Of a stretch of DNA of 39,380 nt, positions 2,794 through 35,027 are shown in pieces (position 1 is the stretch's first letter; the number at the start of each line of letters is the position of its first letter). The notes beneath the pieces were generated by a model, which was given only the letters and a program-made list of their open reading frames with translations, did not search any database and was not told the origin of the DNA. This stretch comes from a virus: positions 1 through 39,380 of the IMG/VR virus record IMGVR_UViG_3300037827_000262. The stretch is one strand, 5' to 3'. Both the position numbers and the translations under genes were made by a program.

Positions 2794-3503
2794 CGCGCCG
2801 TCGAGATCGCGAACCGCTCGCCGACCGCATCGAGCGTCTGCGACGCGAGCGCTCCGTGCCGGAAGCAGACCTGTTTAGTCAGGCGACGCCGGACGACCCC
2901 TCGCCTCAACCTGCACCTTCACAGACCCCTCCGCCTCCGCCCCCGACTGCCCCCAAGAGGGATAGCGGACTCAAGAAGCCGGCGAAGAAGCAGCCGCACA
3001 TCCCGACGAGTGTCGACGCGGCGCGCTCGGTAAAGCACAAGACCGGCAGTCGCACCGCCGCCGTACTAGCGCTGATCCAAGAGCACCCGCGAACGGACTT
3101 CGAGATCCGTGAACTGCTCGGCGATCTCGACGCAGGAACGGCGACGCTCGACACGACGCTGGAGGCGGCGCGCTGCAAGTTGCGCGACGAGGGGTTGATC
3201 CGCGATTCCGGCAAGACGCGAATGAACCCGTCGGGTCGGAAGGCGATTCTCTGGGAGGCGGTCGAGCAACTCCCGCTCGCGACGAAACGAGAGCGCGCGT
3301 CGACGCGTGTGCAACTCATCGACCGAGCCGACCGAGCCGAGGGCGTCGTCGACCAACTCCGGCGCTCCTGCGAGCGCTGCGAGGCGCGCGGGCACGACTC
3401 GATCGCGCTCGACGAGATCCGCAGCATCATCGACCAAGGCACGCACGCTCGACGCACGCTGCCGTACGCCAAGCCCCGATTCAACCCGGCGACGAAACGA
3501 TGA
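2790..3503 (+). CDS. Winged-helix-like DNA-binding protein
   Basis: A 237-residue protein. The N-terminus is Arg-rich, and a Pro-rich linker (~residues 35-60) follows. A segment from ~75 to 155 reads as a winged helix: a helix ending in LALIQEHP, TDFEIRELLG, CKLRDEGLIRDSGKTRMNPSGR and ILWEAV. This pattern is frequent in phage proteins near RusA or HNH genes. The C-terminal part has CERCEARGHDS, possibly a metal site or an interaction helix. ATGA overlap at both ends places it in the same operon as the SLOG gene and the next small gene. A regulatory or nucleic-acid-binding role is inferred from the fold only. Confidence 0.55.
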   Translation: MTRRRDREPLADRIERLRRERSVPEADLFSQATPDDPSPQPAPSQTPPPPPPTAPKRDSGLKKPAKKQPHIPTSVDAARSVKHKTGSRTAAVLALIQEHPRTDFEIRELLGDLDAGTATLDTTLEAARCKLRDEGLIRDSGKTRMNPSGRKAILWEAVEQLPLATKRERASTRVQLIDRADRAEGVVDQLRRSCERCEARGHDSIALDEIRSIIDQGTHARRTLPYAKPRFNPATKR

Positions 3504-3721
3504 GTCTCATCCCGTGGCAGATCGACGGCGAGCCGGTTGAGGTCGCTACCGACTGGCGCGACTACGGCTACAAGACACCGGGGACGCAGTACGTGTTCAC
3601 CTACGGCGCGTGGCATCGAAAGCGACCCGACCTAAACGATCCGCAGGAGAACAGGCCGGAGAGGTTCCCGCGCTCACACGTTCGTAACGTCCACGCGAAT
3701 CTCGACCGAGACGTCCGATGA
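3500..3721 (+). CDS. Small hypothetical protein
   Basis: Encodes 73 residues beginning MSLIPWQIDGEPVEV, with a Trp/Tyr-rich middle (DWRDYGYKTPGTQYVFTYG) and a basic end. No family was recognised. The ATG overlaps the upstream stop as ATGA, and its own stop overlaps the ATG at 3718, so it sits in a continuously coupled chain. Composition matches neighbouring genes. Aromatic content and good start context argue that it is real. Confidence 0.6.
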   Translation: MSLIPWQIDGEPVEVATDWRDYGYKTPGTQYVFTYGAWHRKRPDLNDPQENRPERFPRSHVRNVHANLDRDVR

Positions 3722-3903
3722 AAGCGCATCGCTCAGGACGTCGCGCGACGACGAAACGAGAGCGACGGACGACGGCGGAGCATCGAGCGCTCGTGACGCT
3801 GAAGCGCGAATGTTTGTGCGCGTGCCACGAGACCTACGGCGGACCGACGCATCCCGACGAACGCTGCATCTGTAACGGTGGCACAGGCTGGGACTACCGT
3901 TGA
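3718..3903 (+). CDS. Small Cys-rich protein, possible zinc-binding
   Basis: Encodes 61 residues. The first half is very basic (HRSGRRATTKRERR). The second half has a cysteine cluster, CLCACHETYGG, then ERCICNGGTGWDYR. The CxCxCH...CxCNGGTGWDY arrangement resembles the small treble-clef-like CxCxxC...CxCxGG peptides common in actinophage genomes and probably binds zinc. It starts by ATGA overlap with the gene before. No function is known. Confidence 0.6.
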   Translation: MKAHRSGRRATTKRERRTTAEHRALVTLKRECLCACHETYGGPTHPDERCICNGGTGWDYR

Positions 3904-3906
3904 TAG

Positions 3907-4089
3907 GTGAACCAACGCATCCAAGGCAGCGCGCGTCGCGGCGGCGTATACGTCGAGCGTCGTGTGCTGTCGCCGAGCAAGCGCATTCAGGTGCTCGGTC
4001 CGCGAGAGCCGACGACGGAGGAACGTGCGAACGCTGACCGTCGAGGTTCCGATCCGTCCCTACTCGCTGAACGCGGAGCGATCGTCTAA
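3907..4089 (+). CDS. Small basic hypothetical protein (overlaps RusA start)
   Basis: A GTG start three bases after the preceding stop gives 60 residues beginning MNQRIQGSARRGGVYVERR. The last ~20 residues overlap the start of the RusA-like gene in another frame. No family was recognised. Position and Arg-rich N-terminus are compatible with a real small gene, but the tail could be non-conserved. Confidence is limited because most of it could be leader sequence for the RusA gene. Confidence 0.4.
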   Translation: MNQRIQGSARRGGVYVERRVLSPSKRIQVLGPREPTTEERANADRRGSDPSLLAERGAIV

Positions 4090-4408
4090 CCGCTTCGCTC
4101 GCATGAAGCGGAACAAGGAGACGCGCGAGGCGGCGTGTCTAGCGGCGACGCTGCCGGAGTTCTCGCGCGTACCGCTGTTCGATCTCGTCGCGATCGAGGT
4201 CTATCCGTGGTTCAAGATCCGTCGCGACCAAGATCCCGCGAACTGTATGCCGAGTGGGAAAGCGTGCATCGACGGACTCGTCGACGCGGGGGTTGTCGAC
4301 GACGACGACGGCGACCACGTTGCGTTCGTCCGCTTCTGGCCTGTTCAGTTCGGGCGCGACGCGCTCGTGCTGGTTGTCAATGGGAACTCGAAGGGCGGTG
4401 ATACGTGA
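4025..4408 (+). CDS. rusA: RusA-like Holliday junction resolvase
   Basis: Encodes 127 residues from the GTG at 4025, starting VRTLTVEVPIRPYSLNAE, which fits the RusA N-terminal strand and the typical ...P.S.N.. motif. The family's catalytic acidic cluster (usually D-x-DN...DAL...DDSQI) appears as DQDPANCMPSGKACIDGLVDAG and then VVDDDDGDHV. RusA proteins are dimeric Mg2+-dependent nucleases that resolve Holliday junctions or trim branched phage DNA before packaging. The frame extends upstream to 3962, but the family homology starts at 4025, where GGAGGAAC lies directly before the GTG. The stop overlaps the next GTG. The classical DN pair is DP here, so activity is not certain. Confidence 0.65.
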   Translation: MRTLTVEVPIRPYSLNAERSSNRFARMKRNKETREAACLAATLPEFSRVPLFDLVAIEVYPWFKIRRDQDPANCMPSGKACIDGLVDAGVVDDDDGDHVAFVRFWPVQFGRDALVLVVNGNSKGGDT

Positions 4409-4602
4409 ACCGGACACCGTTCGACGATCACATCCCTCTGACATTGGAGTTCCATGAAACGCATCCTGCTAGTTGTGTTCACGCTCGCGTTGTTAACGAC
4501 GAGCACGGTAACTGGTGTTGCGATTGCCAGCGCGACATTTTCGTCGGCATCGTCTACGGCGAAGTCGTTGGCTTCGACTACGGGATCATCTTCCCTCACT
4601 AG
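4405..4602 (+). CDS. Small Cys/His-rich protein overlapping the secreted protein gene
   Basis: A GTGA overlap with the RusA stop starts a 65-residue frame. It contains HPASCVHARVVNDEHGNWCC and then DCQRDIF, a plausible zinc-ribbon-like arrangement (C..H...CCxC). The last ~50 codons overlap, in a different frame, the signal-peptide region of the gene at 4454. Both frames look protein-like, so this may be true dual coding. If only one is real, the secreted protein is preferred because its own Shine-Dalgarno and signal peptide are stronger. Confidence 0.45.
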   Translation: MNRTPFDDHIPLTLEFHETHPASCVHARVVNDEHGNWCCDCQRDIFVGIVYGEVVGFDYGIIFPH

Positions 4603-4942
4603 GCACCAACGCGAGGTCGAGCACGCGCGCCGAGTCCATCGCGCGCACCTGCTCTATGCCGCGTCGAAACGTCGACAGGCTGTCGAGATCAATCACATTC
4701 AGGCGCTCATGGATTCGCGCGGCGGCGGATCGTGGCGCGACTGGGTAACGACTGGGACGTCCGACTGGTGGTGCATCCGAGTCGCCGAGGAAGGCGGGCA
4801 GGAGGCGCCGGGCAACATGTTCGGGTTCGTCCCGTTCTCTGGCGGCGACGACGCGCAGCAACGCGCCGAGGCGCTCTCGATCCTCCACGCGGTATCGAAT
4901 TGGTACCCCGCGTGGACGACCGCGCCGGGGTGCGGGCTGTAG
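4454..4942 (+). CDS. Secreted transglycosylase-like (Rpf/lysozyme-type) protein
   Basis: Encodes 162 residues. A good signal peptide (MKRILLVVFTLALLTT..., hydrophobic to ~residue 27) is followed by a Ser/Ala/Thr linker, a basic helical segment, and a C-terminal domain with WWCIRVAEEGG, GNMFGFVPF and NWYPAWTTAPGC. This matches the W.CI...E.GG...G.FG pattern of transglycosylase-like/resuscitation-factor domains, in which the Glu is catalytic. A role in cleaving peptidoglycan outside the membrane is inferred. GGAG lies ~6 nt before the ATG. A lysis-type gene between portal and protease is unusual; it may act in superinfection or host cell-wall remodelling. Confidence 0.55.
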   Translation: MKRILLVVFTLALLTTSTVTGVAIASATFSSASSTAKSLASTTGSSSLTRHQREVEHARRVHRAHLLYAASKRRQAVEINHIQALMDSRGGGSWRDWVTTGTSDWWCIRVAEEGGQEAPGNMFGFVPFSGGDDAQQRAEALSILHAVSNWYPAWTTAPGCGL

Positions 4943-4996
4943 CCAGTCCTTTGACGGAGCGCTGCGACATGGCAGACTTCCAAATCGGAGGTCACC

Positions 4997-7144
4997 ATGT
5001 CGCAGCGTTCACCCTCTCGGTCGCGTACCGAGATCCTGTCTGAGTTCTTCACCGCGAGCGGCAGATCGTTCGCCGATGCGCCGCCTGCTCCAGCGGTAGC
5101 CAAGACGCCACCGCCTCCGGGCGACGACATCGTGGTCCCCGACGACAACGCAGACGCCGGAGTCGCCGCCGCGCTCGTGAAGGCGAAGGCAGCCGTACAG
5201 GAGGCGATCACCGCGCAGAAGTCCGACACGGACACGGACCCGATCGACAAGGAGATCACGCAAGGTCTCGCACAGATCGACGCGATGCTCGACGCCGTAA
5301 CCGCGAAGCAAGCCGAGGACAACGACGCGAACGACGCGCCTAAGGGCGACGCTCCGCCGCCGGGAGACGACGCGACCGCTCCCGACGCGCCTTCGAGCAC
5401 TCCAATGGCCGTAGATGCCACTCCTCCGGTCGAGCCGGACGGACCGCCGAAGGAAGGCGACATCGAGCCGAGCGAGAAGTGCGAGACCGAGGGGTGCGCG
5501 CACCTTGCGAGCGCGCACCAAGACACCGAGATCGGCGCGAACACCGGCGCGTGCTCGATGTGCTCGTGCGAGCAGATGTCGTCACCACAGGTCGCCGAGC
5601 CGACGACCGACAACGCGCCCGCCGCGTCCGACGGCGCGACGCCGGGAGTCCCGGCAGCACCAGCCGACGGCAGCACCGCTGCGCGTGGAGCGACGGCGCT
5701 TGCCGTCGACGGAGCCGAGGATGCGCCGACGGCAGACGCACCGGCGGCGCCCTCGGCTCCCAACACGCCGCCAGCCGTTGACGCGACCGCGACAATGGGT
5801 CCGGCGTTCACCATTCCTGTCGGCGTCATCGAGGGGCAGCCGACGGGCGACGGTCGCGTGATCGAGCCGAACGCGCTGACGTGGCGCGCTCCGCCGCTTC
5901 CGCTCATGGGACTCGACACGTCACCGCACGATCCCAGCGGGTTCAGCCCGAACGATCCCGCCGTCATGTGCGGTCGGATCGACTCGCTGACGCGCGTTCC
6001 GGGTGAGGGTGGGACGCAGGTCATCATGGCAAACGGGTTCTACTTCGCGAACGACGACGGGATGCACTTCGCGGACCTCACGGACTCGATGGGTCGCTGC
6101 GGGATCTCGGCGGACATCTCCGTCGGCGAGAGCAATATCACCGCAGAGATCGGTGAGGACGGGTTCCCCGCGAACGAGCAACTCGTGTTGCTGAGCGGTG
6201 AGATCGCCGGGTTCACGCAATGCCCGTTCCCCGCGTTCACCGGCTGCTACATCGTGCTCGGCGACGGCGCAGAGGGCGGACCGGCACCGATCCCGCAGAC
6301 CGTCGACGACGCGGCGAAGCCGCCGGACGCGGTTGCAGCCGGAGGTCAACTCATCCACTGGATGATGCGCGCCGACGACGACATCTGCGAGCCGTGTGCC
6401 GACGGGATCGAGGTCGTGATCGCAAGCGGAGCCGGTCCGCTCCGTCCACCGAAAGCGTGGTTTGAGAACCCGTACTTCACGGAAGGCGACGGTCGACTCG
6501 TCGAGATGACCAACGGTCGCTCCGCCTGCCCCATCACGATCACCGACGACGGCGAGATCTTCGGACACATCGCACCGTGGGGTGTGTGTCACACCGGCGC
6601 GAGCGGGACGTGCATCATCGCACCGAAGTCGAAGGTCGACTACGCGCACTTCAAGCGCGCGCAGCACGTCGTGACCGCCGAGGGCGAGAAGGTCCGCGTC
6701 GGCACGATCACAGGGGGCGTCGGCCACGCAGGCGAGAGCGCGAAGGGTGGCGCCGCGATGGCGCACTACGACAACGCTGCGTGGCAGGTCGCCAAGGTGA
6801 ACATCGGCGAGGACTCCTACGGGATCTGGATTCACGGACAGATCTCGCCGCACGCGACCGACGAGCAGATCGAACTGCTCCGCTCGACGTCGCCGAGCGG
6901 CGACTGGCGGAACATGGGCGCTGGCCTCGAACTCGTCGCCGCGCTCGCCGTGAACCAGCCGGGGTTCCCGATCGCGCAGATCGCCGCGAGCGGTGCCGTG
7001 ATGTCCCTCGTCGCCGCAGGCGTCACGGAGATGACTCGACTCATGCACCCGGCCTTGCCGGAGGCGTCGACGCCACTCCAGCGTGCGTTGCTCGGCGCGG
7101 CCAAGGCGTTCGCCAAGAGCCGCCTTGCATCTCTGAGTCAGTAG
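4997..7144 (+). CDS. Capsid maturation protease with scaffold-like N-terminus
   Basis: Encodes 715 residues; the ATG follows GGAGG. Residues 1-265 are Pro/Ala/Asp-rich and low complexity, with a helical stretch (~55-115) and a Cys/His cluster (CETEGCAHL...CSMCSCEQ, ~155-195), so this part may act as scaffold. The C-terminal part carries the conserved signature of actinophage head-maturation proteases: FGHIAPWGVCHTG, YAHFKRAQ, HYDNAAWQVA, GEDSYGIWIHG, SGDWRNMGAGLELVAALAVN and PGFP. It would cleave scaffold and capsid precursors inside the prohead. It is followed by the capsid gene after 169 nt. Long-range order (portal, protease, capsid) supports the call. Catalytic residues cannot be fixed by eye. 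Confidence 0.8.
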   Translation: MSQRSPSRSRTEILSEFFTASGRSFADAPPAPAVAKTPPPPGDDIVVPDDNADAGVAAALVKAKAAVQEAITAQKSDTDTDPIDKEITQGLAQIDAMLDAVTAKQAEDNDANDAPKGDAPPPGDDATAPDAPSSTPMAVDATPPVEPDGPPKEGDIEPSEKCETEGCAHLASAHQDTEIGANTGACSMCSCEQMSSPQVAEPTTDNAPAASDGATPGVPAAPADGSTAARGATALAVDGAEDAPTADAPAAPSAPNTPPAVDATATMGPAFTIPVGVIEGQPTGDGRVIEPNALTWRAPPLPLMGLDTSPHDPSGFSPNDPAVMCGRIDSLTRVPGEGGTQVIMANGFYFANDDGMHFADLTDSMGRCGISADISVGESNITAEIGEDGFPANEQLVLLSGEIAGFTQCPFPAFTGCYIVLGDGAEGGPAPIPQTVDDAAKPPDAVAAGGQLIHWMMRADDDICEPCADGIEVVIASGAGPLRPPKAWFENPYFTEGDGRLVEMTNGRSACPITITDDGEIFGHIAPWGVCHTGASGTCIIAPKSKVDYAHFKRAQHVVTAEGEKVRVGTITGGVGHAGESAKGGAAMAHYDNAAWQVAKVNIGEDSYGIWIHGQISPHATDEQIELLRSTSPSGDWRNMGAGLELVAALAVNQPGFPIAQIAASGAVMSLVAAGVTEMTRLMHPALPEASTPLQRALLGAAKAFAKSRLASLSQ

Positions 7145-7313
7145 GTTCCACGGGGAACATCCGAGGATGCTTGACGCGCTCTCCGGCGCGTGCAACAGTT
7201 CCGTCACTGAACCCGACGTCTCGGTCAATCCGACTCGGAGGGGTGCCGGTCAATCCGGTCGAGGTTCGACACACGTCGGCCTCTCGTGAACCACGACCCC
7301 TCAGGAGTTTGAG
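7145..7313 (+). other. Intergenic leader of the capsid gene
   Basis: 169 nt without a convincing gene. It holds small hairpins and an 11-bp direct repeat of CGGTCAATCCG at 7222-7232 and 7247-7257. TTGACG at 7171-7176 is a possible -35, but no good -10 follows at 17 nt. AGGAG just before the ATG at 7314 is a good ribosome-binding site. A capsid promoter here is possible but not shown. Confidence 0.3.
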
Positions 7314-9020
7314 ATGGACAAGTTGGAGCAGATCCGCGAAATGCTCTCGCGTCTTGCGACGCTGGACCGTGAGAGCCTCGACGCGCTGCGCGCACTCATC
7401 GTCGAGGCAGGCGACGAGATCGACGCCCTCCCCGACACGGACGAGAACATCGCCGCGCTCATGGAGGTCGCCGACGCAGGCGAGCAGGTCATGGCGCGCG
7501 ACGCGGAACTGGTCGCGGCAGCGGAGAAGGCGACCGCCGACAAGGCGGCAGCGCGTGACCGCATCGCAAAGATCAAGAACAACGGCGAGGACCCCGACGC
7601 CGAGGACCCGGATGCCGTCGTCGATCCCGACGCAGAACTCGACGGCGAGCCTGCGAAGGATGGCGAGCCGGTCGCGGTCGCCGCGAGCGGCACCACCGTG
7701 TCGAAGATGGCGCGCAGCCGCCCGTCCACGCCAGCAGGACCGGAGGTCGAGCCGGACGCCAACGGTCGGCGCTTCAGCCTGACCGCCTCGCGCGAGTTGC
7801 AGGGGTTCCACTCCGGCGACGTCGTGCCGGACCGCATGGCGCTCGCGGTCGCGATGTGCCGGAACCTCGATCGCATGACGAAGCGCGACAAGGCTCGCGG
7901 CGACGTCGTGCTCGCATCGAGCGAGTGGTCATACCCCGAGGACCGTCGGCTCACCGACGACCCGGAGCGCAACGCCGAGATCCTCGACGCCGCGACACAC
8001 CCGATGTCATTGCGAGCGACCGGCGGCATCTGCTCGCCGGTGAACATCGACTGGAGCCTCGACACGTGGGCGATCGCTGACCGCCCGCTGCGCGACGGCT
8101 TCGCCGGGTTCCAATCGACGCGCGGTGGTCTCACCTACCGCCCGCCTGCGAACATCACGGACCTCGCCGGAGCGACGGCGGTGTGGACGGAGGCGACCGA
8201 CGCCGACCCCGGCTCTGCGGTCAAGCCCGTCATCCACATCGAGTGCCCGACGCCGGTCACGATCTACGCGGACGCCGTGTCGACGCGTCTCGGGTTTGGC
8301 AACATGCAGGCTCGGTTCGACCCGGAGACGGTCGCGAACAACACGGACATCGCCATCGCCGCAGCCGCACGGATCGCCGAGGCGAACCTGCTCACGGCCT
8401 TGCAGGCGTTCTGCGTCGGCAACGTGACGTGCACCGCCGAACTGCTCGGCGGTACTCGCGACCTGCTCGCGACGCTCGACAACGTGATCGCCGCGTTCAA
8501 GGATTGGAACCGCCTGTCCGACAATCAGATGCTCACGGTCGTCTGGCCTCGTTGGGTGCGCAACTTAATCCGCGCAGACCGCGTTCGCGAACTAGCGCAC
8601 GACGGCTCCAGCGTCGACCCGCTCGCGATCCCCGACGCGTACATCGACTCGCTGTTCTCGATGCGGAACATCAAGCCGATCTGGACGCTCGAAGGGATGC
8701 CCGCGCAGGGAGACGGCGACTACCCGTCGCAGAACTTCACCGAGTTCACGATGGACACGATCGTCCCCGAGTTCCCCGACTCGCTGATGTGGAACCTCTA
8801 CATCGAGGGTGCGATCCAGTTCCTCGACGGTGGACGGCTCGACCTCGGCGTGGTCCGTGACTCGACGCTCGACGCGACGAACGACTATGAGACCTTCACG
8901 GAGACCTTCGAGGGACTCGCCAACCGTTCCTTCGTCGGCGGTGTGCTCCAGATCGTCACGGCGCTCTGCCCGACGGGCGGATCGGCAGCGACGGTCGACA
9001 CTCACACGCTCTGCGCGTAG
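7314..9020 (+). CDS. Major capsid protein (HK97-fold) with N-terminal delta-like domain
   Basis: Encodes 568 residues. Residues 1-100 form a charged helical, coiled-coil-like segment (MDKLEQIREMLSRL...), as in the scaffold/delta domain of HK97-type capsids, followed by an acidic linker. The body from ~160 contains capsid-like stretches such as GGICSPVNIDWSLDTWAI, RGGLTYRPP, TATAVWTE-type motifs, CPTPVTIYADAVSTRLGFGN and LMWNLYIEGAIQFLDGGRLDLGVV. It lies directly after the protease gene, the canonical place for the major capsid gene, and is preceded by a good ribosome-binding site. The N-terminal region is likely removed during maturation by the upstream protease (inference). Confidence 0.85.
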   Translation: MDKLEQIREMLSRLATLDRESLDALRALIVEAGDEIDALPDTDENIAALMEVADAGEQVMARDAELVAAAEKATADKAAARDRIAKIKNNGEDPDAEDPDAVVDPDAELDGEPAKDGEPVAVAASGTTVSKMARSRPSTPAGPEVEPDANGRRFSLTASRELQGFHSGDVVPDRMALAVAMCRNLDRMTKRDKARGDVVLASSEWSYPEDRRLTDDPERNAEILDAATHPMSLRATGGICSPVNIDWSLDTWAIADRPLRDGFAGFQSTRGGLTYRPPANITDLAGATAVWTEATDADPGSAVKPVIHIECPTPVTIYADAVSTRLGFGNMQARFDPETVANNTDIAIAAAARIAEANLLTALQAFCVGNVTCTAELLGGTRDLLATLDNVIAAFKDWNRLSDNQMLTVVWPRWVRNLIRADRVRELAHDGSSVDPLAIPDAYIDSLFSMRNIKPIWTLEGMPAQGDGDYPSQNFTEFTMDTIVPEFPDSLMWNLYIEGAIQFLDGGRLDLGVVRDSTLDATNDYETFTETFEGLANRSFVGGVLQIVTALCPTGGSAATVDTHTLCA

Positions 9021-31253: not shown

Positions 31254-31411
31254 GTCGCGACGGAAAGCAGACCGAGCAGCCGTGCTCGCAATGCGGGCAC
31301 TACCGAGCGCAGCATTCGGATCTAACCGGATTCTGCCTATGGAGCGGCGAGAACATCTACTGCAAGTGCACGTCGTTCAGCGACGCGCCACTCCCGCCGG
31401 TGCAACGGTGA
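31250..31411 (+). CDS. Small zinc-ribbon-like protein
   Basis: A 53-residue frame from GTG (GTGA overlap). CSQCGHYRAQH, then FCLWSG and YCKCTSF provide CxxC...C...CxC with flanking His, a likely zinc site. It is short but coupled to both neighbours and conserved in style with other small Cys-rich phage proteins. Confidence 0.6.
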   Translation: MSRDGKQTEQPCSQCGHYRAQHSDLTGFCLWSGENIYCKCTSFSDAPLPPVQR

Positions 31412-31968
31412 AACGTCGGATCGAGTACATGAGCCTCGCCCTACTCGTTAAGAAGATGGACCCGGACAACGAGAAGCACCACGCGGAGACCGAGATCGAA
31501 GCGAGCGTCGGGCGCTTTGGCTTCATCGAGCCGATCGTGGTCGACGAGCGAACCGGCCTGCTCAACTCCGGTCACGGTCGCGTGAAGGGCCTCGTCCAGA
31601 TGCGCGGCTCCGGCGAAGTCGCGCCGGAGGGGATCGAGGAACTACCTCGCGACTGGAAGGCGCCTGTCGTCCGTGGCTGGGCGAGCAAGGACGATGACGA
31701 GGCGGCGGCGGCGCGTATCGCGATGAATCAGATCGGACCGCGTGGCGGCTGGGACGACCGCTCGCTCGCCGAGACCGTGAAACGACTCGCCGACTCGCCG
31801 GGCGGTCTGCTCGGAACCGGCTTCGACGAGGCGGACCACAGGAGGCTCGTGGAGTTCCTCGCAGGGCCTACCCCTCCCGGCTCATTCCCCGCGTTCGGCG
31901 ACGACCTCACGACGCACTACAGGTGCCCCTCGTGCCGCTACGAGTGGAGCGGACAACCGGCGCCATGA
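31408..31968 (+). CDS. ParB-like nuclease-domain protein with zinc ribbon
   Basis: Encodes 186 residues from GTG (GTGA overlap). IEYMSLALLVKKMDPDNEKH, FGFIEPIVVDERTGLLNSG, GHGRVKGLVQM and VRGWASKDDDEAAAARIAMN form the ParB/Spo0J N-terminal domain common in phages; LAGTGFDE-type sequence follows. The C-terminus has YRCPSCRYEWSG, half of a zinc ribbon. Such proteins often neighbour DNA methyltransferase genes and may bind DNA or nucleotides. The methyltransferase fusion is encoded ~190 nt downstream. Confidence 0.75.
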   Translation: MKRRIEYMSLALLVKKMDPDNEKHHAETEIEASVGRFGFIEPIVVDERTGLLNSGHGRVKGLVQMRGSGEVAPEGIEELPRDWKAPVVRGWASKDDDEAAAARIAMNQIGPRGGWDDRSLAETVKRLADSPGGLLGTGFDEADHRRLVEFLAGPTPPGSFPAFGDDLTTHYRCPSCRYEWSGQPAP

Positions 31969-32168
31969 AGCGGTGGCGCGAGTGGAGGATGCGGCGCGCT
32001 CTCAACCGGCTTGTCGCTCGCATCGCGGTACAACCCGAAGGCAGGCTCGACGAACTGAGCGCCGAGGCGAATGACACGGCGCGGTTAGTGACGCGGCTCC
32101 TGCAAGCGAACGGACGGCTCGGGCCGGGACAGTTCATCGACGTCGAGATCACGAAGCGTGATGGATAG
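31965..32168 (+). CDS. Small basic hypothetical protein
   Basis: Encodes 67 residues from the ATG at 31965 (ATGA overlap). A basic N-terminus (KRWREWRMRRALNRLVARI) is followed by a helical acidic part and FIDVEITKRDG. Its end overlaps the methyltransferase start by 11 nt. Not recognised; possibly an accessory subunit given the tight coupling. Confidence 0.55.
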   Translation: MKRWREWRMRRALNRLVARIAVQPEGRLDELSAEANDTARLVTRLLQANGRLGPGQFIDVEITKRDG

Positions 32169-34296
32169 ACCCCCGTACGCGATCCCGTCGATGGCGGAGA
32201 TCGCGAAGGCTCGCGGCTCGAATGGCCTGACGGTGATCTCGACGTTCAGCGGGTGCGGCGGCGGCTGTCTCGGTCTGGAGTGGGCGGGCTTCGAGATCCT
32301 CGCGGCGTGTGAGTTCGTCGATGCGGCGCGCGAGACCTACGCGGCGAACCATCCCGGTGTACCGATCGACTCGCGCGACATCCGTGAGATCGCGCCGAGT
32401 GACCTCCTGACGCTCGCTGGCGTCGAGCGCGGCGGGTTCGACCTCCTCGAAGGGTCGCCGCCTTGTAGCGCGTTCTCGACGGCGGGGAACCGCTCTCGCG
32501 ACTGGGGCGAATCCAAGACCTACTCCGCCACCAAGCAGGTCACGGACGATCTGTTCTATGAGTTCGCGCGGCTCCTCGAAGGGATGCAGCCCCGAGCGTT
32601 CGTCGCCGAGAACGTGAGCGGTCTCGTGAAGGGAGTTGCGAAGGGCTACTTCAAGCGCATCCTCGCGCGGCTCGGCGACGCGGGCTACGTCGTCGAGGCT
32701 CGACTGCTCGACGCGCAATGGCTCGGCGTCCCGCAGTCTCGGCAGCGTCTGATCTTCGTCGGGTTCCGCAACGATCTCGGCAAGACGCCGACGTTCCCCG
32801 ATCCGCTCGGCTACCGCTACTCGATATGCGACGCGCTGCCGTGGCTCGACGGCGGCGTGAAGGGCGACGTTCGCTGGAAAGAACGCCACTACGAGGACGA
32901 GCCAGTCGGCACCATCCAGCAGCACGGACGCGGCGGTCACTCGCGGCTGCTCGCGAAACCGAAGGTGACCGGACGGACCGGACCGCATTTCAAGCGCGAG
33001 TCGCACCCGCTCGACGAACCGATCGGGACGCTGCTCGCGAGCGATCCGGCGCACACGCGGTGGGAAGTCGACGGACCCGGCGACGTCGACCCGGAGACCG
33101 GACAGAGCCTCGCGCTAGAGGGGTACGCGATCGCTCCGGCCTACGACAAGTTGAGAGAGGGGCAGACGGACGATCGCTACTTCAACCTCGTCAAGCCGGA
33201 TCGCAACGCGCCGTCGCCGACCATTACGCAGAGCGGCGGATCGAGTCCGGGGACCGCTGGCGTCGCGCACCCGTATGAGCGGCGCAAGTTCTCGCTCGGC
33301 GAACTGCGACGGCTCTCCGGGTTCCCCGACGACTTCGTGCTGACCGGGACCTACGCAGAGCGGTGGGAGCGGATCGGTCGGGCCGTGCCGCCACCGATGA
33401 TGCGAGCGGTCGGCGTCGAGATCGCCGCGACGCTGAAGGGTGAGACGAGAGCGCCGATCGTCGTGCGCCATCCGAAGGCCGACGCGTACCGCGACCTGCT
33501 CGTCGAGTTGACGGCGGCGCCGCGTCGAGACGTCGGCGTCATGCTCTCGCACGGCATCGACTCCAACGCGATACTCGCTGCGCTCCTCGCGAACGGCGTC
33601 ACGCCGACCTGCCTGTCGTTCCGCGTCGAGGGCGTCGAGTCGAAGGACTGGGCGGCGGCGCGACGGATCGCCGAGCACCACTCGCTGCCGTTCCTCGACG
33701 TGGAGATCACGACGGATCTCGACGCGCTCGCCGAGCAGGTTCGCGAGGTCATCCAGCGCGGCGTCCGGGGCAAGGCTCGGATCGAGTGCTCGCTGCCGGT
33801 GTGGCGCGCGCTCGACGTCGCGAAGCGCGAGGGACTCCGCTCCGTGTATCTCGGCACCGATCGGGGGCAGTGGGCGCTCCGTCGCAAGGAGGCGATCGAC
33901 GCGCACGACGGACGTCTCGATGACGTCGAGTTCATGGCGGCGCAGTTCGTCGAGCGTCGAGCGCGACCGAACCCGAGCCAGTGGCTCACCAACAAGGCGT
34001 ACGCCGATGACCTGAAGATCGGACTGGCCTGTCCGTACTTCGACGTCCGGTTCATCGACGTCCTCGACGGCGAGACGTGGCGGAGCCTGAACACACCGCG
34101 ACAGAAGATGCCGCTCCGCGACGCGTTCCCCGAGTGCGACTCGTGGGGGACGGCGAAAACGGCGACGCCATTCCAACTCGGCGACTCGCAGATCTCGACG
34201 AACTACGCGCGGCTCCTCACGACCGCCATGAACACCGGCGGCTGGAAGTCCGTGGTCGGTCTCTACAACGATCTGATCCGTCAGGCCGAGGCGTGA
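32158..34296 (+). CDS. C5-cytosine DNA methyltransferase fused to asparagine-synthetase-like ATP-pyrophosphatase
   Basis: Encodes 712 residues from GTG; an ATG at 32161 is an equal alternative. Residues 1-430 form a C5 DNA methyltransferase: motif I (ISTFSGCGGGCLGLEWAGF, ~27-45), motif IV SPPC with nucleophile Cys103, ENV at 151-153, QSRQR at 193-197, a target-recognition region ~200-375, motif IX RRLSGFPDDF, and motif X, which reads IGRAVPP with Arg408 where Asn is normal. Residues ~455-680 resemble the synthetase domain of AsnB: PP-loop SHGIDS (464-469), YLGTDRGQW (564-572), RQKMPLRDAF and a later Lys. No glutaminase domain is present. The stop overlaps the CmoA-like gene (GTGA). Inference: it transfers a carboxymethyl group to cytosine, then activates the carboxylate with ATP. 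Confidence 0.85.
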   Translation: MMDRPPYAIPSMAEIAKARGSNGLTVISTFSGCGGGCLGLEWAGFEILAACEFVDAARETYAANHPGVPIDSRDIREIAPSDLLTLAGVERGGFDLLEGSPPCSAFSTAGNRSRDWGESKTYSATKQVTDDLFYEFARLLEGMQPRAFVAENVSGLVKGVAKGYFKRILARLGDAGYVVEARLLDAQWLGVPQSRQRLIFVGFRNDLGKTPTFPDPLGYRYSICDALPWLDGGVKGDVRWKERHYEDEPVGTIQQHGRGGHSRLLAKPKVTGRTGPHFKRESHPLDEPIGTLLASDPAHTRWEVDGPGDVDPETGQSLALEGYAIAPAYDKLREGQTDDRYFNLVKPDRNAPSPTITQSGGSSPGTAGVAHPYERRKFSLGELRRLSGFPDDFVLTGTYAERWERIGRAVPPPMMRAVGVEIAATLKGETRAPIVVRHPKADAYRDLLVELTAAPRRDVGVMLSHGIDSNAILAALLANGVTPTCLSFRVEGVESKDWAAARRIAEHHSLPFLDVEITTDLDALAEQVREVIQRGVRGKARIECSLPVWRALDVAKREGLRSVYLGTDRGQWALRRKEAIDAHDGRLDDVEFMAAQFVERRARPNPSQWLTNKAYADDLKIGLACPYFDVRFIDVLDGETWRSLNTPRQKMPLRDAFPECDSWGTAKTATPFQLGDSQISTNYARLLTTAMNTGGWKSVVGLYNDLIRQAEA

Positions 34297-35027
34297 GCGA
34301 CGTCGCGAGCCGGTTCCCTACAGGCGGCTGGCAGTTCGACAAGGCAGTCGTCGACGAGTTCGACCACCACGTCAGAGACAACGTTCCGCACTACGAGATC
34401 TTCCAAGAGACCGTCGCGCACCTGAGCGACTGGCTCGCGCCGCACGGAGCGAACGTCGTGGACTTAGGTGCGGCGACCGGCGAGACGATCAAGGCCATCG
34501 GCGTCCGGCATCCCGATCGCGCCTATCACTTCACGGCGTACGACATCGAACAGGAGATGCTGAACGCCGCGCAGGCGAAGCATCGAGAGGGCCGCTGGTG
34601 GCACGACCATCGGTTCACCTACGTCGCGCTCGATCTCACACGCGGTCCGCTCATCCACGAGAATGCCGACCTGACGCTCGCGTTGTTCACGCTCCAGTTC
34701 CTCGCGCCGCACCAGCGAGCCGGGGTGCTGCGTACGGCGCTCCAACTTGCTCGCCCCGGCGGCGCGCTCATCGTCGCCGAGAAAGTGAACCAGCCCTCTG
34801 CGTTCTGGCAAGAGATCGCGAACGAGGCGACGTGGGACTACAAGCGAGAGCAAGGCGTGAGCGCCGACGCGATCCGTGACAAGGCTCGTGCGCTACGCGG
34901 CGTGCTCATCCCGCTTGACGCGTGCGACGTCGAGCGAACGATCACGGACGCAGGCTGGTGCGATCCGGTGTGCATCTGGCGCTGGCACCAGTGGGGACTC
35001 TGGGCCGCGACCGCTCCGAGAGCCTGA
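34293..35027 (+). CDS. CmoA-like carboxy-SAM synthase
   Basis: Encodes 244 residues (E. coli CmoA is 247) from the GTG overlapping the upstream stop. Shared with CmoA: GGWQFDKAV...F (11-23), VPHY with Tyr34, SAM motif VDLGAATGE (56-64), FTLQFL (132-137), PGGALIVAEK (155-164), DYKREQG-S (182-190) and the following DKARALRGVL. CmoA makes carboxy-S-adenosyl-methionine from SAM and prephenate for tRNA modification with CmoB; no CmoB is encoded here. The Asn before FTLQFL in CmoA is Leu here, and the Arg after the YKR segment is shifted by one in a by-eye alignment, so an altered product is possible. It could supply the methyltransferase fused upstream. Confidence 0.75.
   Translation: MSDVASRFPTGGWQFDKAVVDEFDHHVRDNVPHYEIFQETVAHLSDWLAPHGANVVDLGAATGETIKAIGVRHPDRAYHFTAYDIEQEMLNAAQAKHREGRWWHDHRFTYVALDLTRGPLIHENADLTLALFTLQFLAPHQRAGVLRTALQLARPGGALIVAEKVNQPSAFWQEIANEATWDYKREQGVSADAIRDKARALRGVLIPLDACDVERTITDAGWCDPVCIWRWHQWGLWAATAPRA

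Follow-up and report, generated by a model that had tools for sequence, protein, structure and literature searches.

Hypermodification of phage cytosines through carboxy-SAM (Cx-SAM) was established biochemically by Yang et al. (Nat Commun, Dec 2025) in Synechococcus phage S-B43 (PMC12783734). In that phage, CmoA produces Cx-SAM from SAM and prephenate, CmoX converts cytosine to 5-carboxymethylcytosine, and CmoY ligates glycine to it; chemically, a catalytic Cys attacks C6 and the carboxymethyl group is passed to C5, followed by adenylation and amide formation (PMC12783734). Carboxymethylation confers resistance to HhaI, and S-B43 virion DNA carries glycyl-carboxymethyl-dC at about 10% of C (PMC12783734).

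A candidate DNA hypermodification cluster in a metagenomic phage record

The window analyzed here is the whole of virus record IMGVR_UViG_3300037827_000262 (IMG/VR), a linear, possibly partial stretch of 39,380 bases with phage head and tail genes and no close DNA relative found among named phages. The closest relatives of its major capsid protein come from phages of Arthrobacter, Gordonia and Streptomyces, which points to a host that probably belongs to the high-GC actinobacteria. Toward the end of the record lies a series of tightly overlapping genes (Table 1), an arrangement consistent with one operon.

A preliminary description of this DNA, made from its letters, had reported two genes overlapping by GTGA, the first a C5-methyltransferase fused to a PP-loop AsnB-like domain and the second a CmoA relative. 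All three statements were borne out: the fusion ORF and the CmoA ORF share GTGA at 34293–34296, a single 712-residue ORF matches both PF00145 (E 2e-52) and PF00733 (E 6.8e-6), and E. coli CmoA (4GEK) is the best match of the second protein in sequence as well as in fold. The description overlooked the ParB-like gene at the head of the cluster (phrog_620, E 2.5e-21; phrog_498, ParB-type DNA methyltransferase, E 6.4e-18), which is part of the locus in many phages.

Table 1. Features of the gene cluster (positions in the 39,380-base window).
Feature	Position	Strand	Basis or remark
ParB-like (ParBc) gene, first of cluster	31426–31968	+	ATG 31426 is the inferred start inside ORF 31282–31968
Small ORF, 67 aa	31965–32168	+	Overlaps ParB gene stop (ATGA) and fusion start
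CmoX–CmoY fusion, 712 aa	32158–34296	+	GTG 32158 or ATG 32161 start; single frame
CmoX half: predicted DNA cytosine C5-carboxymethyltransferase domain, residues about 1–430	32161–33447	+	PF00145, 8YF3 match
SPPC motif, residues 100–103, predicted catalytic Cys103	32455–32466	+	Homologue alignment
Arg408 codon, counterpart of Cx-SAM-binding Arg350 of SpCmoX	33379–33381	+	Alignment to 8YF3
CmoY half: AsnB-like AMP-forming ligase domain, residues about 436–712	33463–34296	+	PF00733, phrog_26038, AF2 model
PP-loop S-H-G-I-D-S, residues 464–469, ATP pyrophosphate-binding loop	33547–33564	+	Alignment
Lys650, counterpart of conserved catalytic-region Lys of AsnB-type ligases	34105–34107	+	Alignment
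CmoA homologue, predicted Cx-SAM synthase, 244 aa	34293–35027	+	GTG start, overlaps fusion stop

With S-B43 the cluster shares the same three activities by homology, the SPPC motif and the Cx-SAM arginine, and adjacent, overlapping genes. However, the S-B43 genes are separate and ordered A-Y-X, whereas the order here is ParB-[X-Y]-A with X and Y on one chain, and identity to the S-B43 proteins amounts to 27% (CmoA), 38% (CmoX) and 25% (CmoY). Streptomyces phage TurkishDelight has the same order as here (ParB – CmoX – glutaminase-type AsnB – CmoA) and the closest CmoA among named phages (48% identical), with a CmoX that is 51% identical in the alignment. Its ligase is nonetheless a separate gene whose product has a glutamine amidotransferase domain at the N-terminus, which points to ammonia as the amine in that phage; the fusion is devoid of this domain and in this respect also differs from the ligase of locus L002, which carries a glutaminase domain. 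Pseudomonas phage PaBG encodes ParB – CmoX – CmoA – CmoY as separate genes, the last two flanking a hypothetical gene, and its stand-alone CmoY is the closest to our ligase half among named phages (about 30–32% identity).

The route suggested in the preliminary description, from Cx-SAM via 5-carboxymethylcytosine to an amide, was right in outline: it is the S-B43 route, with all three enzymes homologous and the arginine kept. The novelty implied for the pathway did not hold, as it had already been published in December 2025 (PMC12783734). What is new here is the one-chain X–Y architecture and the divergent ligase, the pathway itself being already known.

The CmoX half carries the arginine of Cx-SAM users

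The N-terminal part of the fusion (PF00145 at residues 25–422, Pfam) has both the C5-methyltransferase fold and the SPPC nucleophile motif. The best PDB sequence match is 8YF3, the Cx-SAM-bound SpCmoX of S-B43 (E 1.4e-61), far ahead of HaeIII and of DNMT1, which forms the next group (E 1.1e-23). Cys103, the counterpart of SpCmoX Cys98, is a Cys in all 103 aligned homologues that reach the column, and the Glu of the ENV motif and the Arg of QxR are likewise kept across the CmoX homologues aligned.

In the pairwise alignment to 8YF3, Arg408 (GRAVPP; GNAVPP in DNMT1) falls on SpCmoX R350, and Arg occupies this column in 99 of 99 full-length homologues, nearly all of which come from CmoA-bearing loci. 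Ordinary C5-methyltransferases have Asn at this position (Asn304 in HhaI), the R350N exchange abolishes SpCmoX activity, and wild-type SpCmoX accepts Cx-SAM only (PMC12783734). Given the conservation of Arg408 and these results on SpCmoX, the CmoX half likely uses Cx-SAM. A basic residue in the cofactor pocket also enables Cx-SAM use by M.MpeI N374K, which differs in being engineered and CG-specific and in having neither a dedicated Cx-SAM supply nor a ligase (PMC12783734).

Could the locus instead encode an ordinary SAM-dependent C5-methyltransferase that happens to lie beside an unrelated small-molecule methyltransferase, with no Cx-SAM chemistry at all? Both proteins do match general methyltransferase families, and the CmoA homologue scores below the TIGR00740 cut-off. 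We nevertheless consider this reading very improbable, as Arg408 stands in place of the Asn of SAM users, the corresponding SpCmoX mutant is inactive (PMC12783734), and CmoA is found next to an Arg-type CmoX time and again, in well over 100 loci. A scan of genome contigs gave one C5-methyltransferase, in Spirosoma (L117).

The CmoA homologue shares sequence features with the proven phage enzyme

The second protein contains class I methyltransferase domains (Pfam) and matches phrog_4752 (E 9e-53); among solved structures, it is closest to 4GEK, the CmoA of E. coli (E 1.2e-14, residues 10–212). The AF2 model (pLDDT 95) fits 4GEK over 230 residues (Z 30.1, rmsd 2.1); as other methyltransferases superpose at Z 27–28, the fold alone is not decisive for CmoA identity. 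The sequence and fold matches of the fusion and the CmoA homologue are beyond chance. The match to TIGR00740 (E 1.9e-21, 76.9 bits) stays under the cut-off of 193.3, but this cut-off is no guide to phage function because the biochemically proven SpCmoA misses it as well (115.6 bits).

In E. coli CmoA, Arg199 binds the Cx-SAM carboxylate through a salt bridge (PMC3663124). The equivalent residue is Ala here and Glu in SpCmoA. One helical turn further, where E. coli has Glu203, the present protein has Arg202, and an Arg is likewise found in SpCmoA and in 75 of 96 aligned sequences. In its sequence, the homologue resembles the proven SpCmoA in features that separate the latter from the cellular enzyme. 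The arginine by which cellular CmoA is recognized seems to have moved in phages, and together with the missed NCBI cut-off this means that annotation based on Arg199 or on the cut-off can overlook phage Cx-SAM synthases. Arg199 is missing from most phage CmoAs (e.g. L020 5962–6657, L021 4932–5714 and the present one), which carry Arg at the Glu203 position instead; those of the L002/L007 type have Arg at neither.

The known cellular role of CmoA (PMC12783734) would suggest that the homologue serves wobble modification (cmo5U) of host tRNA. We reject this role as extremely unlikely because neither a CmoB family match, whose absence the preliminary description had pointed out, nor a tRNA gene was found in the 39 kb record (possibly a partial contig). 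The gene, moreover, overlaps that of a DNA enzyme and is recurrently paired with CmoX.

A divergent AsnB-type ligase domain forms the C-terminal half

Residues 456–561 of the fusion match PF00733 (Asn_synthase; Pfam) and residues 423–709 match phrog_26038. Pfam and PHROG profile searches detected this AsnB-type PP-loop ligase domain but no glutaminase domain in the fusion, making glutamine-derived ammonia unlikely as the amine. The asparagine synthetase B equivalog TIGR01536 reached 18–20 bits against a cut-off of 267.1, the N-terminal glutaminase being missing.

The ligase half was modelled alone (AF2, 30-sequence alignment), mixed alignments having put ligase rows on the methyltransferase half. 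The resulting model (pLDDT 87) is similar to asparagine and beta-lactam synthetases (9b6c, Z 21.5; 1mc1, Z 21.4; Foldseek E 8e-8). Asparagine synthetase B and beta-lactam synthetase (1CT9, 1MC1) have the same synthetase-domain fold and PP-loop, whereas the ligase half lacks the glutaminase domain, is about 15% identical, and presumably acts on a modified cytosine in DNA.

Conservation was scored in a 95-sequence alignment (94 homologues besides the protein here). The ATP-binding residues of the PP-loop are kept: S464, G466, D468 and S469 agree with 91–94 of the 94 homologues. Lys650, which a profile search aligns with the Lys of E. coli AsnB, is invariant in 94/94, and K539, E543, N645 and P647 are also conserved. 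Yet several near-invariant positions are changed in the ligase half (Thr518 instead of Pro, Gln527 instead of Asp, Ala669 instead of His); two further deviations, Arg for Ala at 569 and the loss of an invariant Arg at 593, are less certain because both adjoin alignment gaps. Compared with SpCmoY of S-B43, it sits on another branch and departs at near-invariant positions. The nearest relatives are stand-alone ligases in L201–L203, about 40% identical. An IMG/VR search with the ligase domain alone gave no match, and the ligase relatives there were retrieved with alignment queries.

With PP-loop and Lys650 intact and a confident AsnB-type model, the ligase half has most likely retained ATP-dependent carboxylate activation. 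The deviations from the family render its activity and its amine uncertain, and the amine attached may be one other than glycine. An alternative reading takes the C-terminal half for a degenerate or re-purposed ligase, the DNA then bearing plain 5-carboxymethylcytosine or a non-glycyl amide. The substituted near-invariant positions, the distance to the nearest relatives, the missing glutaminase domain and the existence of ligase clusters with other active-site residues (PMC12783734) speak for it, and the preserved PP-loop, Lys650 and AsnB-type model speak against it; overall we find it quite conceivable, if on the less probable side.

Is the fusion genuine?

CmoX and CmoY are fused in one of the 145 loci having both (66 distinct CmoX clusters), namely in this phage, and such a fusion is not mentioned by Yang et al. 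(PMC12783734). In L029, L030, L031 and L234, the order ParB-X-Y-A is realized by separate but overlapping genes, from which loss of the CmoX stop would give the fused arrangement. Across the junction the reading frame is open, and GC3 is high and codon-position GC continuous, i.e. the codon bias is unchanged. In both alternative frames, however, a TGA (codons 426 and 428) occurs no more than three codons from where CmoX would be expected to end, and in the alignment the start codon of L201, a stand-alone ligase, falls on GTG 33463, which is in frame. In no phage or plasmid record did a single region cover 80% of the fusion, and no near-identical contig was found in which to compare the junction.

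The nearby off-frame stops, the in-frame GTG and the single contig mean that an apparent fusion could arise from a one-base error in the assembly. Under this explanation the pathway is the same, with CmoX and CmoY as separate proteins and the fusion caused by an indel during assembly or sequencing; that X and Y are separate in all of the other 144 loci having both fits with it as well. The open frame and constant codon bias speak against it, and it is nothing unusual for adjacent co-transcribed genes to fuse in frame; we deem the error unlikely. The X–Y fusion, resting on one metagenomic contig, is in our estimate fairly probably real. Internal initiation at GTG 33463 could release a free ligase.

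Proposed pathway

We think it quite probable that the cluster serves to hypermodify phage DNA as a module of the CmoA–CmoX–CmoY kind. Gene presence, domain identity, key-residue conservation and synteny are established here; taking all of the chemistry, as well as the amine, the target sequence or site specificity and the protection from restriction, from the homologous system leads to the following scheme. CmoA would convert SAM and host prephenate into Cx-SAM. The CmoX half would flip a cytosine out of the DNA, Cys103 attacking C6, and Cx-SAM held by Arg408 would donate its carboxymethyl group to C5, giving 5-carboxymethylcytosine. The CmoY half would then adenylate the carboxylate of this base with ATP and couple the activated group to an amine; glycine, another amino acid or some other small amine is the probable partner. 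Owing to the domain fusion, this second step would follow the first on one protein. The amide-modified cytosine would shield the phage genome from host restriction. That the single chain both carboxymethylates cytosine and amidates it using an amine that is neither glycine nor ammonia, yielding a cytosine derivative not yet described, is possible but rather doubtful.

One more phage, probably actinobacterial by its head genes, would thereby join the 5-carboxymethylcytosine pathway. A one-protein version of both DNA-acting steps could be a handy DNA-labelling tool, provided that the ligase accepts varied amines.

Related loci in other phages

The three domains co-occur in other phages: the CmoA/CmoX/CmoY gene set was found in S-B43, TurkishDelight, PaBG, Staphylococcus phage F1 and more than 130 IMG/VR loci. 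Clusters of the form ParB-X-Y-A or ParB-X-A recur in many loci, and ParB-like genes adjoin CmoX or CmoA in L021, L023, L007, L002 and many more, in line with the 1660 ParBc genes counted near CmoX and the ParB-like neighbor described as common (PMC12783734).

In three loci, CmoA and ParB are accompanied by a phrog_5475 protein (L022, Gordonia phage Evaa, OP434461.1, 1–3952; L114, 2044–5711; L246, about 3352–7815), which combines a ParB-N domain with a Rossmann 'DFGAGH' methyltransferase-like region. No C5-methyltransferase was found in the complete Evaa record, the record of L114 or locus L246. The phrog_5475 protein could be another kind of Cx-SAM user, although it also has relatives in Pseudomonas phages that are absent among the CmoA matches listed.

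The CmoX of Erwinia phage Alexandra (L118:3986–6115) contains an intein directly before the catalytic Cys of SPPC. Long CmoX ORFs of Erwinia phages were considered as further fusions and rejected, their extra length being the intein. In the same phage, CmoA and a CmoY-like ligase are separated by a gene for a DUF1611 protein (L119:4783–5838) with a possible role in the synthesis or activation of the amine. Five loci (L042, L043, L044, L045 and L018) have two tandem CmoX genes each, which perhaps differ in target sequence.
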